Origin: Pseudomonadota bacterium
GTDB taxonomy: Bacteria > Pseudomonadota > Alphaproteobacteria > UBA1280 > RI-95
Reading direction: 5' to 3'
NCBI GenBank assembly: GCA_016125375.1
Contig: WGLU01000002.1
Location: 124,001 to 188,000, forward strand
DNA: 64,000 nucleotides
The position numbers were made by a program, and so were the translations under genes. Positions 6,866 to 24,518 of the stretch are shown piece by piece; the first letter of the stretch is position 1, and every line of letters begins with the position of its first letter. The notes below the pieces were generated by a model. It searched no databases. It was not told the origin of the DNA and saw only the letters and a list, made by a program, of their open reading frames with translations.

Positions 6866-10608
<3,743 letters not shown>

Positions 10609-11437: not shown

Positions 11438-12445
11438 CTACATTAACTTTCCGTAACTATGCAGGCCACTGAGCATCATGTTCACGCCCAGATAGCAGAA
11501 CAGCGTAACACCAAATCCGGCAATTGCCCACCATGCAAGGCGGGCACCCTTCCACCCGTGTGTGAGGCGCGCGTGCAGGTAACCGCCATAGACCAGCCAG
11601 ACAATCAGCGCCCATGTTTCTTTCGGGTCCCATGACCAGTAGCCGCCCCAGGCCTCATACGCCCACGCACTGCCCAGCACAATAGCCAACGAGAAAATGG
11701 GGAAGCCGACGGCAATTGCACGAAAAGTTATCTCCTCCGCAACCGTTTGTGCGGGTAGCAGACGGGCCGTGCGGCCCTTGGCGTCGGTACGGGCACGCAG
11801 GAGCTGCATGGCACCGGCTGCTGCGGCAACAGCAAAACAACCATAGCCGACAAAATTGGCCAGAACGTGCATGGGTAGCCAATAGCTGCGGAGCGCCGGC
11901 ATCAGGTGGCGCGGGCCTGCCTGTCCGATATCCCCCAGCCACAGGGTAAAGAGTGCACCGGTAACCAGCAGAGGCGCCACAAAAATACCCAGTCCCTGAT
12001 GGCGTGTCTGCCGTATCAGCACCTGCGCGGCAAACCCGACAACACCCAGCAACAGGATACTGACCTCGTACATATTGGTAATAGCGATATGCCCAGCCTC
12101 GAGCACCTGATAGCTTTCCCAGCTGGTGGTGACAACCAGCGCGGCAGCCAAGGCTGATGCCAGCGTCACGAACATGCCCCCGGCCTCGGCAAGCCACGTG
12201 CGGTTGCGCACCGCGTAGACCCCGTAAAGAGCTGCGCCAAGCAGGTACAGGCCCGCCATGTGGGGCATCAGTTTGACGCTCAGCAGCGCATCCGGCAGGG
12301 TTTGCAGACCGATGCGCCCCGCTTGCGCACCGATCAGGATAGCAACAAACACGCCCGCCAGCGCTGCAAAACACAGGCTGTAGCGGGTTGGCGCCCCCAA
12401 ATTGGGCAGACGGGCGGCGGATTTTTGGCTTGCGGTCGAGGTCAT
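11438..12445 (-). CDS. ccsA: CcsA-type cytochrome c assembly protein (System II haem handling)
   Basis: Polytopic membrane protein, 335 residues. The tryptophan-rich motif WGGYWSWDPKETWALIVW near the C-terminus is the CcsA/ResC form, not the CcmC or CcmF form. Conserved His-containing segments (LPMHVLANFVGYGCF, SGLHSYG) fit axial haem ligands. The start is the ATG at 12445, with AAGG 11 bases upstream; the frame is open further upstream, but that stretch has no membrane-protein character. CcsA normally works with CcsB (ResB) to export haem and attach it to c-type cytochromes; no ccsB is in the window. Most alphaproteobacteria use System I (Ccm), so this is unusual. A standalone HemX/YpjD-like role is the main alternative. 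Confidence 0.85.
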   Translation of the reverse strand: MTSTASQKSAARLPNLGAPTRYSLCFAALAGVFVAILIGAQAGRIGLQTLPDALLSVKLMPHMAGLYLLGAALYGVYAVRNRTWLAEAGGMFVTLASALAAALVVTTSWESYQVLEAGHIAITNMYEVSILLLGVVGFAAQVLIRQTRHQGLGIFVAPLLVTGALFTLWLGDIGQAGPRHLMPALRSYWLPMHVLANFVGYGCFAVAAAAGAMQLLRARTDAKGRTARLLPAQTVAEEITFRAIAVGFPIFSLAIVLGSAWAYEAWGGYWSWDPKETWALIVWLVYGGYLHARLTHGWKGARLAWWAIAGFGVTLFCYLGVNMMLSGLHSYGKLM

Positions 12446-12608
12446 CACAGAAACCTTATTCTTAAAGCCCGCAAAAGGTAGCATTTTACGCCGTCCGGCT
12501 CCAGCCCTTTTGTCACGTGGACAGGCGCGCCAAAATCGCGTAATCTGCTGGCAACAAGTTCGCACTGTTTTCTTTTCGTCAATGACCCTGTACAAAAGGC
12601 ACCTGCCC

Positions 12609-13592
12609 ATGTACGACCTGACCATTATCGGCAATGCTCCCGTGGACGCGCTCTATCACGTCGACGACGCACTGCTGACGCAATTCAACCTGAAAAAGGG
12701 CGACTGGCAGCGACTGCCCGTCGAAACCTTTGACGCCATCATGAAAACCCTTGCCGACGACGGCAACCTGCCGGAGCTCATCCCCGGCGGCAGCGGCGCC
12801 AATACGGCGTGGCATCTGGCCCGTATGGGGCACAAGGTTTTCTTTGCCGGTCTGGTGGGCGATGACGCCCCCGGCCAGCTGTTCTACACCTCCCTCATCA
12901 CCGCAGGCGCGGACATGACCCCGCCCGTCAAAGGGCTGGCCACGTTCGTGCTGGGCTGTCTGGTCACGCCGGATGGCGAGAGGACCTTCATCTCCGACGG
13001 CCGCTGCCCGGACTTTCTGCCCGAGCATGTGCCCGAGGCGGTGGTCCGCCAGAGCCGCTACCTGATGCTGGAAGGCTATCTGCTGGGCACGGGCTACCCT
13101 GCCCTCGCCCATGCGGCGGAGTTGGGCCGCGCGGCTGGCGCCAAGTTGCTGCTGACGCTGGCTGCCCCCTCCTTTGTGCAAAAGCATTGCGCGCAGATCG
13201 TCGAGCTGCTTACCCACGAGCACGCCACGCTGTTCTTTGCCAACGACAAGGAACTGGCCATGCTGCGCAACCAGATCCCGCATCTGATGGACCCCCGGCT
13301 CATCACCAAGGCGTTGCAGGCCCTGTACCTGACCAACTATGTGGTCACCCACGGTGGCCGTGGTGCGGAGTACTACCACAAGGGCAACAGCAACGGACTG
13401 GTGCCGCCCGCCCGCAAGGTGAGCAAAGTGGTCGATGCGACCGGCGCCGGCGATGCCTTCGCTGCCGGTTTCCTGCACGTGTGGATGGCAGACCCGGACA
13501 ACGTGACCGATGCCATTCAGGCCGGTCATACGCTCGCGGGCAAGGTGATTGCCCATCTGGGCGGCCGCCCCAACGTGACGCTGGACGACTGA
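12609..13592 (+). CDS. PfkB-family carbohydrate/nucleoside kinase
   Basis: Ribokinase-like kinase, 327 residues. Seen: first PfkB signature region PGGSGANTAWHLARMGHKV (about residues 60-78) and second signature VDATGAGDAFAAGFLHVW with the catalytic Asp near the C-terminus. The family phosphorylates sugars or nucleosides with ATP. The general layout resembles the adenosine-kinase/sugar-kinase subgroup common in alphaproteobacteria; the substrate cannot be read from sequence. The start at 12609 is the MYDLTIIGNAPVDA methionine; an upstream in-frame ATG at 12582 is possible. It has its own terminator and is followed by the Nmad2 gene. Codon use is strongly G/C-ending in its middle part. Confidence 0.9.
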   Translation: MYDLTIIGNAPVDALYHVDDALLTQFNLKKGDWQRLPVETFDAIMKTLADDGNLPELIPGGSGANTAWHLARMGHKVFFAGLVGDDAPGQLFYTSLITAGADMTPPVKGLATFVLGCLVTPDGERTFISDGRCPDFLPEHVPEAVVRQSRYLMLEGYLLGTGYPALAHAAELGRAAGAKLLLTLAAPSFVQKHCAQIVELLTHEHATLFFANDKELAMLRNQIPHLMDPRLITKALQALYLTNYVVTHGGRGAEYYHKGNSNGLVPPARKVSKVVDATGAGDAFAAGFLHVWMADPDNVTDAIQAGHTLAGKVIAHLGGRPNVTLDD

Positions 13593-13601
13593 TAACGAAA
13601 G

Positions 13602-13625
13602 CACCCCCTCACGGGGGTGTTTTTT
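13602..13625 (+). terminator. Terminator of the PfkB kinase gene
   Basis: 7-bp stem CACCCCC / GGGGGTG (13602-13608 with 13613-13619), loop TCAC, then six T. Confidence 0.9.
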
Positions 13626-13704
13626 ATTGCCTGCCCTTGCAGGCAGGCGCCGCAGCGCTTATGTCAAGGAACGCTATCCCTGTCACGTTTCCCAAGGTAT
13701 TTCC

Positions 13705-14295
13705 ATGCCCAAGAGCTACCCCAAGCGCTTGCTTGTGTACGTTGTCGCGTCCGACAACGGCCTTGCGCCCAACATCAACGGCGGGCTTTGCTCGCTCAGC
13801 GTCTGCAAACCGGTCGTGCGCCAGAGCGCGACCATCGGCACCGACTGGGTGGTTGGCATGTCCACCGCCAAGCACGGCGCCGCCCGTGTCATCTACGCCA
13901 TGACCGTGGACGAGAAGATTCCCTTCGCGGATTTCTTCACCGACCCGCGTTTTCAGGCCAAGAAACCCTCCCGCAGCAATCCGAAGGGGGATAACTTCTT
14001 CGACCTGCGTGCCGGCACATTGCAGGTGGTCAATACCCGTGCTGCCCATGCGGGCAAGGCGGACAAGATTGCCCGCGACCTGCGCACGCCGTTGGCCGTC
14101 ATCGGCCATACATTCTGGTACTTTGGCGCCAACGCGCCGGAGGTGCCGGGCAAACTGCAACAGAGCCGCATCGTCCAGGGCAACCGCCGCGGTCACCGCA
14201 TCATCACCGATGCGAAGACCATCAAGGCGTTCTGCGACTGGCTGTATGCGCAGGAACAGGGCGTCCGCGGCCCGCACCGTGACCCTGTCTGCTGA
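13705..14295 (+). CDS. Nmad2-family protein (nucleotide modification associated domain 2)
   Basis: 196 residues. Seen: the family's characteristic N-terminus with YVVASDNGLAPNINGGLCSL, CKPVVRQSA, DWVVGMSTA, VIYAMTVDEKI, then FADFFTDPRFQAKKPS, GDNFF and a late GHTFWYFG motif. I recognise this as the Nmad2 domain, described in phage and bacterial contexts linked to modified DNA bases; its biochemical activity is not established as far as I know. The start is the ATG at 13705 with AAGG at 13694-13697. It sits between a PfkB kinase and a convergent secreted-protein gene, with a terminator on each side. No restriction, methylase or phage structural genes are nearby, which is unlike the contexts that defined the family. 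Cytoplasmic. Confidence 0.85.
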   Translation: MPKSYPKRLLVYVVASDNGLAPNINGGLCSLSVCKPVVRQSATIGTDWVVGMSTAKHGAARVIYAMTVDEKIPFADFFTDPRFQAKKPSRSNPKGDNFFDLRAGTLQVVNTRAAHAGKADKIARDLRTPLAVIGHTFWYFGANAPEVPGKLQQSRIVQGNRRGHRIITDAKTIKAFCDWLYAQEQGVRGPHRDPVC

Positions 14296-14303
14296 CAAAC
14301 GAA

Positions 14304-14331
14304 ACACCCCCGCAGTGCGGGGGTGTTTTTT
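14304..14331. terminator. Terminator between the Nmad2 gene and the convergent secreted-protein gene
   Basis: Stem ACACCCCCG / CGGGGGTGT (14304-14312 with 14318-14326), then six T on the plus strand. On the minus strand it follows the stop of the leftward gene and is followed by a weaker T-rich stretch, so it may work both ways. Confidence 0.85.
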
Positions 14332-16009
14332 ATGGGTGATCCGGCTGCGCGCACATATTTACAATTTTCAAATCATTCACATGATGGCTCGAACCTATGG
14401 TGCTTGGTTCACGGCAGATCGTTGCCATATGACAACCGTCAGGTCCAATAGTACGGACGGCACAGTTACGCCCTAACTTGGCTAAACGGTAGGGTTTGCC
14501 TTGGTAAGTCAGCAGGTAAACCTCATCCTTCTCGGTCCCCACAACAAAGCCGTCGCGGGCTGGCTGTGTAAGGTAACGGATTACAGGTGAGACATTTTCA
14601 ATATCCGCCACATCTTTGGCACCGCCCCACGGCGTACCTTCTGCTACACCTGTAATGGGTATCCATTTATTATCCGGTGTCAGCCAGTAGGGCTTGCGCA
14701 GCAGCAACCTGATACGACCGGCCAACTCTTCTATCTTCTGCTGCTTCATTCGGTGTTTATATTCATCTTGTTCGGTATTTTCAGGAATCTTTATTTCTTC
14801 CGGCAGATCTTTGGGCAGCAGGTAGACAAGCAAATTGCCATTGAGCGGATTTACGACATAATCTTCGTATTTATCCTTATCAGATATCGACAAAATTAAA
14901 GACCGATGATATGCAAACATGCCGCTCGGAGGAGGAATTTCTTCATTATCCCGCTCCCAATCAAAAAGCTTAAGGGAACCCGTATCTCTTGGTTCTAAGA
15001 AGTTTATAAACCCCTTACCAGCCGCCCAGTACCTAGGGCCAACCCGCCTCACCCCATTAACGGCATTTCCATATATTTGGAGTACAGGGAACAATCCGCA
15101 TTGATGAACAGAAAAGTAAAATTGCTCATCCATTTTTGTTTCTGGTGAGCTTGCAAGCCACATAGGCGTCCAAGGGGTTACTTGAAATGCCGCTGGTGGA
15201 CCACCACGCGCCGCACCCTCTTTCGCCAAAGCGACGAGGTTATACACCTTTACATCCTCAGGGGTGCCATACCAGACCTTAAAGTGGACTAAATCGTCTT
15301 TTGACAGGGGGTTATCCACCACCTCCTCTATGGCAAACTTGCCTTTACCATCGCCACAAAAATGCGGGAGCGGGCGCATCCAATTCACCGTTTTATCGCC
15401 GGTCGTATTGAGTTTTGTTTTCTCACCCGTCCGGATATCGTACATCCAGACAACATTTTCGTACTGGAAGTCACGCTTTACCTCTGGTTTTGGCGTCCAG
15501 AAATTCCCACCACCCCACAGAAGCGACCACTTGCCATATTTAGTGACATAGTCCCACTTCATCTTCCAGCCTGCGAGGGTTTTATACCAACCTTCGTGCC
15601 TGTCTATCTTCTCCCAGCGTGGGTCAACCAACTTGGAAGCCCCCCAGATAACACGGTGATCATCAATCCACATGGGGCGGGTTAATGTTTCAATATATTT
15701 ATACCCCAACGTGTCCCATGCCTCGGAGCGGACGCCGGTAGCTTCAATCGTGTAACTGTTGGGGTCCAAGTCGGGGATTTTGCCAAACTCTTCCTCGTAC
15801 CGTTTGTTGGCCTCACGTACCGGTGCCATGCGTTCGTTCCATCTGTCCACATATTGGCCCCAGGCAGCACCAATCTGTTTGGCTATGCCCTGTGGCTCTG
15901 TTGTTGGGCTTACATCCGCACCATACACCGCAGTGGGCAAAACAAAAGCGCAGGCAATAAGCACTGCGCTTGTAAGAACTGATTTTACTTGCTGTCGTTT
16001 GGTCATCAT
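14330..16009 (-). CDS. Unknown secreted protein, about 560 residues
   Basis: I do not recognise the family. A cleavable signal peptide is clear: Lys/Arg start, hydrophobic core VLTSAVLIACAFVLPTAVYG, then ADVS. The mature part is rich in Trp, Tyr, Lys and Asp, with motifs such as YGKWSLLWGGGNFW, and contains six scattered cysteines. Weak alternating strand patterns hint at a beta-propeller-like or periplasmic enzyme fold. The start ATG at 16009 overlaps the holC stop (TGATG), so translation is coupled; a second ATG follows at once (16006). Base composition is visibly more A/T-rich than the neighbours, with codons such as TTT, ATT and AAA common, opposite in bias to the G/C-ending singletons. 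It occupies the place where ndk often follows holC. Recent acquisition is possible. Confidence 0.8.
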   Translation of the reverse strand: MMTKRQQVKSVLTSAVLIACAFVLPTAVYGADVSPTTEPQGIAKQIGAAWGQYVDRWNERMAPVREANKRYEEEFGKIPDLDPNSYTIEATGVRSEAWDTLGYKYIETLTRPMWIDDHRVIWGASKLVDPRWEKIDRHEGWYKTLAGWKMKWDYVTKYGKWSLLWGGGNFWTPKPEVKRDFQYENVVWMYDIRTGEKTKLNTTGDKTVNWMRPLPHFCGDGKGKFAIEEVVDNPLSKDDLVHFKVWYGTPEDVKVYNLVALAKEGAARGGPPAAFQVTPWTPMWLASSPETKMDEQFYFSVHQCGLFPVLQIYGNAVNGVRRVGPRYWAAGKGFINFLEPRDTGSLKLFDWERDNEEIPPPSGMFAYHRSLILSISDKDKYEDYVVNPLNGNLLVYLLPKDLPEEIKIPENTEQDEYKHRMKQQKIEELAGRIRLLLRKPYWLTPDNKWIPITGVAEGTPWGGAKDVADIENVSPVIRYLTQPARDGFVVGTEKDEVYLLTYQGKPYRLAKLGRNCAVRTIGPDGCHMATICREPSTIGSSHHVNDLKIVNMCAQPDHP

Positions 16010-16464
16010 CAGGCTTTTTTGACCCATTTACCGTCTTCGCGGGCCCAGTAGATGAGTGGATAGCCCTTGTCCTTAAGGTCTTTCCAGCGTTTGCGGGCGG
16101 CGTCCTTTTGCGGTTCGCTGCCCTCGAACACATCCAGCACGCGGGCGTAGGAAGAAAAATCACCCGCATCCGCACCGCTCAGGCGCACAAGAATGTCCGC
16201 GCCACCGGGATTTTCATCCTGCGTGGTCAGGTAAACAGGCTGCTTGTCGGCATGGCCGTCGGCAGCTGCGCCGTGGGGCAGGAAGCTTTCCGGTGCGTAG
16301 CTCCACAGGTACTCGTTCAGGCGCTCGAGGCGCTTGTCATCCGGACAGCGGACAACGGCCTTGTGCCCGCTCTGAAGGATTTTTTCCAACAGTGCGGGCA
16401 GCATGGCGTCGGCCCCTGCGGGGGTATTGGCATCCCCCACCAGATAGAACGAGATTTCCGTCAT
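16009..16464 (-). CDS. holC: DNA polymerase III chi subunit HolC
   Basis: Clamp-loader accessory subunit that links the polymerase III holoenzyme to SSB. 151 residues, normal length. The sequence begins MTEISFYLVGDANTPAGADA and contains YLWSYAPESFLPHG and DILVRL segments typical of the family, ending YPLIYWAREDGKWVKKA. It follows pepA with a 4-base gap, a widespread arrangement. Confidence 0.93.
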   Translation of the reverse strand: MTEISFYLVGDANTPAGADAMLPALLEKILQSGHKAVVRCPDDKRLERLNEYLWSYAPESFLPHGAAADGHADKQPVYLTTQDENPGGADILVRLSGADAGDFSSYARVLDVFEGSEPQKDAARKRWKDLKDKGYPLIYWAREDGKWVKKA

Positions 16465-22446: not shown

Positions 22447-23733
22447 ATGAAAAAGTTTATGCGCTTTCTGGTTCTTGTGCTGCTCTGCCTGAGCTGCGCC
22501 GCTTCCGTTGCCCGTGCAGCAACCGTTGACCGCATTGTGGCCGTTGTGAACGAAAATGTGATTACCCTGCAAGACCTCAATGCCCGCTTCGAGTTCATGA
22601 AAAAGAACCTCGGGCGGGAGCTGGACCGCGCCCATAACCGTGTACTGTTGGATCAGGCCCTGAACGCCCTGATTGAAGAGGAGCTCAACCGCCAGTTTGC
22701 CGCCGAGCAAGGCATCAAGGTGAATCAGAAGCAGGTCGATGAAGCGGTTATTGGTCTGGAGAAGCGTAACAAGCAGCCGGAAGGCAGCTTCCTGAGATTT
22801 GCGGGCGACCTGAAGGACACTGCGCTAGCACAGGTCAAGGACGAGATTATCCGCACCGAAATCGTCAAACAGTTTGTTATTCCGCGGATTACCGTCACCC
22901 CCGAAGAGGTGGATAACCTGATTAAGGGTATGTTGAATACTGGCCGCACAAGCGAGCGTGAAATCGCCCAGATTTTTGTCCCCGTTACCGATGAGTCGGA
23001 CGAGAACAGCGCCCGTGACACCATCCAGAGCATCTACCGCCAGCTGGCGCAGGGTGAAGGATTCGAGGCACTGGCCCGCACCTACTCCAAGGACAAGAGC
23101 GCTGCCGAAGGCGGCTACATCGGCTGGGTCAGCAGCGGCGAACTGCCACCAGTCATGGACGCGGCCGTCAGCAAGCTCGACAAAGGCGGCACCAGCGAGC
23201 CTGTGCGCGGCCCGTCCGGCTGGCACATCATGAAGGTGCTGGATACGCGGGAGACGACCCCGCCTGACCTGAGCGCCGTGGAGGAAGTCCGCCTCGTCCA
23301 GCTGCACAAAACCGTCAACCTGCAGGACAAACGCCCCAACAGCGAACAGATTGCCGATATCGTCAAAGAGTTCGAGGATGTGCGCAAAAAGACCCGCACC
23401 CTTGCAGCTTTCGAGGACGTTTTGAAAAGCCATAAGGATGACAAAGTCTACGGTGCCAGCGGTGATATGGGCTGGCTGTCCCTCAAAGATCTGCCGCAGG
23501 AGTTTCAGGACGCACTGAAAGGCCTGAAAAAAGGCCAGTTCAGCACTATTGTAGCCGGGGATAGCGGCGTGCACCTGTTCTATCTGGCCGACCGCCGTGA
23601 CCGCCCCAACAAAATGCTGGAAGCCTATCGCACCCGTGTGACCGACCGTCTGGTGGAATCCCGCGGCGACCGGTTAACCCGCCGGTTCCTGCGCGATCTG
23701 CGCCGTAAAGCGTATATCGACATCCGCCTGTAA
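22447..23733 (+). CDS. surA: Periplasmic chaperone and peptidyl-prolyl isomerase SurA
   Basis: Guides outer-membrane proteins, including LptD, across the periplasm. 428 residues with a signal peptide ending VARA. Core domain begins RIVAVVNENVITLQDLNARF. Two parvulin-type PPIase domains are visible: one around FEALARTYSKDKSAAEGGYI, with GPSGWHIMKVLD, and a second around YGASGDMGWLSLKDLPQEF, ending GVHLFYLADRR. It lies directly after lptD, and its stop overlaps the rsmA start (TAATG). The pdxA gene often found between surA and rsmA is absent. Confidence 0.96.
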   Translation: MKKFMRFLVLVLLCLSCAASVARAATVDRIVAVVNENVITLQDLNARFEFMKKNLGRELDRAHNRVLLDQALNALIEEELNRQFAAEQGIKVNQKQVDEAVIGLEKRNKQPEGSFLRFAGDLKDTALAQVKDEIIRTEIVKQFVIPRITVTPEEVDNLIKGMLNTGRTSEREIAQIFVPVTDESDENSARDTIQSIYRQLAQGEGFEALARTYSKDKSAAEGGYIGWVSSGELPPVMDAAVSKLDKGGTSEPVRGPSGWHIMKVLDTRETTPPDLSAVEEVRLVQLHKTVNLQDKRPNSEQIADIVKEFEDVRKKTRTLAAFEDVLKSHKDDKVYGASGDMGWLSLKDLPQEFQDALKGLKKGQFSTIVAGDSGVHLFYLADRRDRPNKMLEAYRTRVTDRLVESRGDRLTRRFLRDLRRKAYIDIRL

Positions 23734-24518
23734 TGACCGCCACACCTGCCGCGCGTAAAAGCCTTGGCCAGAACTATCTGGTCGACCCGCATTTCCGTCA
23801 GAAAATCACCAACGTCTGCAAGCCGCAGGCAGGCAAGCCGATTATCGAAATCGGCCCCGGCCCCGGCTCCCTGACCGAAGGTCTGCTGGCTGCCGGTGCC
23901 CATGTGATTGCGGTGGAGATGGATGAACGTTTTGTTCCTGTTCTTGAAGAACTGGCTGCCAAATATCCGCAGGGCAAGTTGACTCTCCGTCTGGGCGATG
24001 CGCTTAAAACGCCCCTGCATGAGCTGGCAGGCGAACCTGCACCACTGGTGGGCAACCTGCCCTACAACGTGGGCACCCAGATTGTGGTGAACGCCCTTGA
24101 CCACGGGTATGCGTTTCCGCATATGACCTTTTTGCTGCAAAAAGAGGTTGTGGGCCGTATCTGTGCCAGCGCAGGCGACGACGACTGGGGACGGCTGGGC
24201 GTGCTGTGCGACTTGCTGGCCAAACGGCAGAAGCTGTTTGATGTACCGGCCGGCGCCTTCCGCCCCATGCCAAAGGTTACCTCCAGCGTGGTGAGCCTTG
24301 TGCCCTTGAGCGCCCCGCGCCTTGATGTCGATCGCAAAAAGCTGGAAGAAATCACCCGCCGTGCCTTTGGGCAGCGCCGCAAGATGCTGCGCGCCAGCCT
24401 GAAAGGCCTGCTGAGCGAGGCCGACATCAGCGCCACCGGCATTGACCCGGCAGCCAGACCGGAAACACTGACGCTGGAAAGTTTTGCCCAACTTGCGGCA
24501 GCGGTAAAAAAACCTTGA
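23733..24518 (+). CDS. rsmA: 16S rRNA dimethyladenosine transferase RsmA (KsgA)
   Basis: Dimethylates two adjacent adenosines near the 3' end of 16S rRNA using S-adenosylmethionine, a late step in small-subunit assembly. 261 residues. Seen: KSLGQNYLVDPHF, SAM-binding IEIGPGPGSLTEGLLAAGA, acidic motif VEMDERF and catalytic NLPYNVGTQIV. The ATG shares one base with the surA stop. A weak hairpin (ACGCCCCTTTGGGCGCA, about 24522-24540) follows and may end the operon. Confidence 0.97.
   Translation: MTATPAARKSLGQNYLVDPHFRQKITNVCKPQAGKPIIEIGPGPGSLTEGLLAAGAHVIAVEMDERFVPVLEELAAKYPQGKLTLRLGDALKTPLHELAGEPAPLVGNLPYNVGTQIVVNALDHGYAFPHMTFLLQKEVVGRICASAGDDDWGRLGVLCDLLAKRQKLFDVPAGAFRPMPKVTSSVVSLVPLSAPRLDVDRKKLEEITRRAFGQRRKMLRASLKGLLSEADISATGIDPAARPETLTLESFAQLAAAVKKP

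Follow-up and report, generated by a model that had tools for sequence, protein, structure and literature searches.

A stand-alone clade of Nmad2-domain proteins that may share a fold with the PUA superfamily

The Nmad2-domain gene of the window (the whole 64,000-nucleotide stretch of alphaproteobacterial DNA analysed here) stands alone on the chromosome and forms, with six relatives, a single clade apart from the cassettes of TIR, MazG and uracil-DNA glycosylase (UDG) genes in which the family is frequently found. The reading we prefer, at a probability of roughly 0.45, is that a domesticated stand-alone Nmad2 protein binds a modified base or nucleotide, acting on one being less likely. What is new here is the clade, which comes from sequence comparison, and the suggestion of a fold, which comes from predicted models; fold, ligand and role are all inferred, and the function is offered as a proposal only.

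The preliminary description of this DNA had named an Nmad2 domain and proposed the Pfam profile for its confirmation. The profile indeed matched residues 8–191 of the ORF at 140.6 bits against a curated cut-off of 26.1, and positions 3–190 of its 200 were covered (Table 1). The gene is single-copy in the window genome (1.98 Mb in 9 contigs, 97.7% complete), whose family has no second genome in the collection. The protein found no match in NCBIfam, PADLOC or, by sequence, among solved structures, and two weak ones in PHROGs (best E 0.038). A phage origin was rejected, as the 50,697 phage records searched gave no match and the PHROG matches are weak. A foreign composition of the gene was not seen either: its GC3 is 0.832 against 0.828 in the PfkB gene upstream, and seven further genes measured gave 0.509–0.74. 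Literature and database searches found no assigned function for Nmad2, and a literature search for PF18753 found no paper mentioning the accession.

Table 1 Features around the Nmad2 gene (window positions)
Feature	Position	Strand	Evidence
PfkB-family kinase gene, upstream of Nmad2	12609..13592	+	PF00294 E 2.4e-35; best NCBIfam match ribokinase, far under its cut-off
Terminator-like hairpin and T run between PfkB and Nmad2	13597..13624	+	12-pair, -19.6 kcal/mol, z -4.96; pattern scans
Nmad2-domain protein, 196 aa, stand-alone clade	13705..14295	+	PF18753 E 6.1e-41; clade support 100/99
Terminator-like hairpin and T run directly 3' of Nmad2	14301..14329	+	13-pair, -23.3 kcal/mol, z -6.29; pattern scan
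ORF of 565 residues converging on Nmad2	14330..16027	-	GC 49%, GC3 0.51; sub-threshold Pfam match only, no NCBIfam match
rRNA adenine dimethylase gene, ~9.4 kb from Nmad2	23733..24518		Pfam

Because strong terminator-like hairpins lie on both sides of it, the Nmad2 gene looks like a monocistronic transcription unit of its own, a prediction made from the letters of the DNA. No shuffled sequence folded as well as either hairpin; the consensus terminator scan listed the upstream one on both strands and did not list the downstream one. The neighbours named by Pfam are a cytochrome c assembly gene, the PfkB gene, holC, pepA, lptD, surA, an rRNA adenine dimethylase gene and a guanylate kinase gene, and the window also holds genes that are probably ligA, recN and lptFG. 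The housekeeping neighbourhood that had been described is thus real, while the accompanying remark that there is no methylase is not strictly true, given the rRNA adenine dimethylase. An Rfam search of positions 12000–15000 gave no match. PADLOC, run on ten hand-picked ORFs of the window, some of which are perhaps not real genes, gave three weak matches, all to one ORF. The 565-residue ORF that converges on Nmad2 has GC values well under those of its neighbours and may have been acquired recently.

A tree of 33 rows places the seven stand-alone genes, including that of the window, in one clade (100/99) on a long stem of 2.15 changes per column, and the nearest relative of the window protein is L036 (99/86). 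L089 joins this clade from outside, with a long-branch warning. Since there is no outgroup, the tree does not tell whether stand-alone genes arose from cassettes or cassettes from stand-alone genes. The residue count was made on 30 rows, leaving out L091, L048 and L092, which are truncated or hard to align, and the partial copies L033, L034 and L020–L022 were excluded from both analyses. Twenty-two positions are conserved across the seven stand-alone rows and in no fewer than 20 of the 23 remaining ones, and Y12, D17, P22, L31, C34, R39, D47, D96, H115, Y139, G141 and W179 do not vary across the 30 rows; the alignment shows that the stand-alone clade has retained the core residues of the family. 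The clade is marked by P6, S16, M52, S53, H57, R161 and R192. Its proteins are 193–199 residues long, against a median of 209 in the 23 others, and are without one 4-residue and one 6-residue stretch present in many of those.

The seven genes occupy six different core-gene settings. Nmad2 lies beside PfkB in the window, FKBP in L035, cysS and an RNase E/G gene in L036, an SRP54-type GTPase and a methyltransferase in L037 and L087, PhoH in L038, and RpoC and a PLP enzyme in L039. BLAST found no TIR, MazG, UDG, HMUDK or Nmad3 gene in the stretches read around any of them. ThsB_TIR was absent from four genomes of the clade, that of the window included, and TIR_2 from the window genome, with the positive control detected in both searches. 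Neither MazG_C nor Nmad3 was matched in the stand-alone-clade genomes, in searches without any responding control; for MazG_C this applies to the window genome as a whole, and none lies near the window gene. Conserved neighbours, which the preliminary description had proposed to look for, were not found: no adjacent gene is conserved between genera within the clade, and partners linked to nucleotide metabolism (MazG_C, UDG and a 5-hmdU-kinase-like protein) occur outside it only. Four genes of the L039 locus are also present 11–14 kb from the window Nmad2, two being guanylate kinase and YceG and the other two presumably acpP and ketoacyl synthase, which they resemble, and one L036 ORF weakly matches (25–29%) a pair of window ORFs over 20 kb from Nmad2; we attribute the former to the usual synteny of core genes and the latter to membership of a large protein family. 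L037 and L087, from two species of a single genus, have a common Nmad2 neighbourhood. In this genus pair the position of Nmad2 is kept, the proteins are 78% identical and dN/dS is ~0.14, an approximate value at a dS of 1.15, showing purifying selection within the genus; six neighbouring genes of the pair gave 0.036–0.328. In L036, a 113-residue ORF without a Pfam match (7648–7989) overlaps the start of the stand-alone Nmad2 by four bases.

Across the class, Nmad2 was found in 13 of 385 genomes. Close relatives occur in three of the six genomes of the window's order, its own counted, and in three of 18 in the order of G087; relatives at 48–57% identity are present in other genomes. G005, a 99% complete genome from the genus of G004, has no Nmad2, so that even within this genus the gene is not universal. 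Such a patchy occurrence speaks against Nmad2 being essential. A plain protein scan of genome contigs returned no relatives, and an alignment-based scan returned six, five of them of the stand-alone type (UBA6503, RI_185, ANT-120, KhW_metabat.34 and UBA2136) and the sixth a distant relative from Chromatiales outside the clade. With the four-row alignment A1, six of 398 genomes in a phylum sample matched, the only stand-alone type being the window's own. Eighteen plasmid records contained an Nmad2 match, and a TIR-domain gene lay directly upstream in all five that were read.

Outside the clade the picture is of another kind. Partners were probed by BLAST at 38 loci, of which 34 were distinct after removal of four duplicates; L034 lay outside this set. 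A ThsB-like TIR gene lies directly upstream of Nmad2 at 14 of the 34, and these 14 also carry MazG (11), UDG (8) and an HMUDK-type protein (5); two of them, L042 and L006, have a near-identical cassette. MazG without a detected TIR was found at three loci, and Nmad3 (PF18754) adjoins Nmad2 at three loci (L047, L090 and L091). Fourteen loci are without any probed partner; seven are those of the window and its clade, and the others include L033, which is truncated by a contig end, and L041. The TIR protein of L003 is of the ThsB type (PADLOC 6.5e-52; PF08937 1.7e-20), and the Pfam names of representative partners are MazG_C, UDG and HMUDK_hel. The order TIR-Nmad2-MazG_C-UDG recurs, as in L030 (2646–5559), L044 (5528–8420) and similar loci, and has the appearance of a defence cassette in its own right, so far uncharacterised. 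On a predicted viral contig (L041, 4647–5876), a nucleotidyltransferase-like gene with sub-threshold Pfam matches stands divergently beside Nmad2. The relatives of the window protein elsewhere adjoin genes of likely anti-virus immunity. An NMAD label, of unspecified Nmad family, appears in legends on tested and predicted defence systems in passages of PMC13092281, and passages of PMC7641849 contain neither the term Nmad nor the term MazG.

AlphaFold gave models for the window protein (pLDDT 94.3, pTM 0.90) and for the TIR-linked Nmad2 of L044 (pLDDT 83.8, pTM 0.85), which are not fully independent because the same 14 proteins are in both alignments. Among the best 20 Foldseek matches in the PDB, 18 for the window model and 17 for the L044 model are ASCH, YTH, EVE or McrB N-terminal domains, at E values of 0.09 or worse, so that no structural match is significant alone. 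Some of the EVE/ASCH labels, such as those of Atu2648, MJECL36 and CXorf40A, are presumptive assignments. In VIA, all of the best 50 matches of both models are YTH domains, a domain of many entries that fills the list, and the top scores (Z 8.4 over 134 residues at 3.3 Å for the window model; Z 8.2 over 132 residues at 3.4 Å for L044) lie barely above 8, under which a match may be a mere common arrangement. A BFVD fold search gave weak matches only, and hhalign of Nmad2 with a profile of 27 EVE proteins gave no support (probability 0.5%). A PUA-superfamily-like fold is therefore likely but unproven, at borderline scores of predicted models. Of the superfamily domains matched (YTH, EVE, ASCH, McrB-N), several read modified bases, and the role in handling modified nucleotides that had been called conceivable seems plausible on these predicted folds.

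If Nmad2 folds in this way, the conserved Y12, D17, P22-N23, C34-K35, R39, D47, K86, D96, H115, Y139 and W179 may bind a modified base or nucleotide. According to PMC7897488, several residues of the EVE base pocket of VcaM4I lie near its N-terminus, from Q10 to P24. D17, P22 and N23, just after the first strand of Nmad2, would occupy a comparable place, a likeness of topology only. Within a cassette, binding would signal modified nucleotides of phage type to the TIR protein. A stand-alone protein would use this pocket for an RNA, DNA or nucleotide of the cell itself.

An enzyme would fit the invariant Asp, Cys, Lys, His and Arg equally well, and the second-ranked explanation after binding, one we regard as rather unlikely, is that Nmad2 cleaves RNA or nucleotides or alters bases on a PUA-like scaffold, the stand-alone clade taking part in RNA or nucleotide turnover. 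The polar D17, C34, R39, D47, D96 and H115 show no variation in the 30 rows, and the top Foldseek match of the window model (E 0.22) is ZmASCH, which is reported to cleave single-stranded RNA with contributions from Tyr47, Lys53 and Ser128 (PMC5615036). However, none of the known active-site patterns was recognised in Nmad2, and the structural match is weak. Binding of a modified base or nucleotide remains for us the most likely activity.

Still less probable is that the window gene was left over or split off from an anti-phage system and continues to defend alone or with unlinked genes. The TIR linkage at 14 of 34 distinct loci, the patchy distribution and the NMAD label in defence systems (PMC13092281) would suit it, but the stand-alone genes sit among core genes and keep their position within one genus, four genomes of the clade are without ThsB_TIR and, in the search in which no control responded, without MazG_C or Nmad3 matches, and the GC3 matches that of the adjoining PfkB gene. 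Slightly more doubtful again is the idea that a domain known elsewhere from TIR-linked cassettes of probable anti-phage function became a cellular reader of modified bases or nucleotides in small-genome alphaproteobacteria, maybe in the place of EVE. EVE, a housekeeping reader of bases that is common in the class (30 of 41 sampled genomes), was found neither in the six genomes of the order (G000–G005) nor in G087; this absence does not show replacement, because the three Nmad2-free genomes of the order are also without EVE, and lineage loss fits equally, so replacement by Nmad2 was set aside. A joint salvage of a modified nucleoside by Nmad2 and the PfkB kinase, the link drawn in the preliminary description, seems very improbable. 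The two genes are neighbours on the same strand, 112 bp apart and of similar GC3. Yet a terminator-like hairpin separates them, and no PfkB was found in the stretches read around the other six members of the clade (2.1 kb upstream for L037). We therefore rejected this partnership; the adjacency of the two genes looks accidental.

Compared with Thoeris, in which the ThsB TIR protein works with the effector ThsA, the TIR protein of the L003 cassette matches ThsB models, while the window genome is without a ThsB_TIR match. The PUA superfamily (YTH, EVE, ASCH and the McrB N-terminal domain) supplies the prevailing structural neighbours of both predicted models, although the scores are borderline and the EVE profile gives no support. 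If the PUA-like fold is true, the cassette of TIR, Nmad2, MazG and UDG could naturally be read as a TIR protein coupled to a sensor for modified nucleotides. With Nmad2 of the ThsB-TIR/MazG_C/UDG or HMUDK cassettes, the window protein has the same domain in full length and the same conserved residues; unlike them, its gene has no TIR, MazG_C, UDG, HMUDK or Nmad3 nearby, and it belongs to a separate, long-stem clade of shorter proteins. Should the fold be as predicted, this clade would offer a minimal protein of ~196 residues in which the ligand could be sought apart from the rest of the system.
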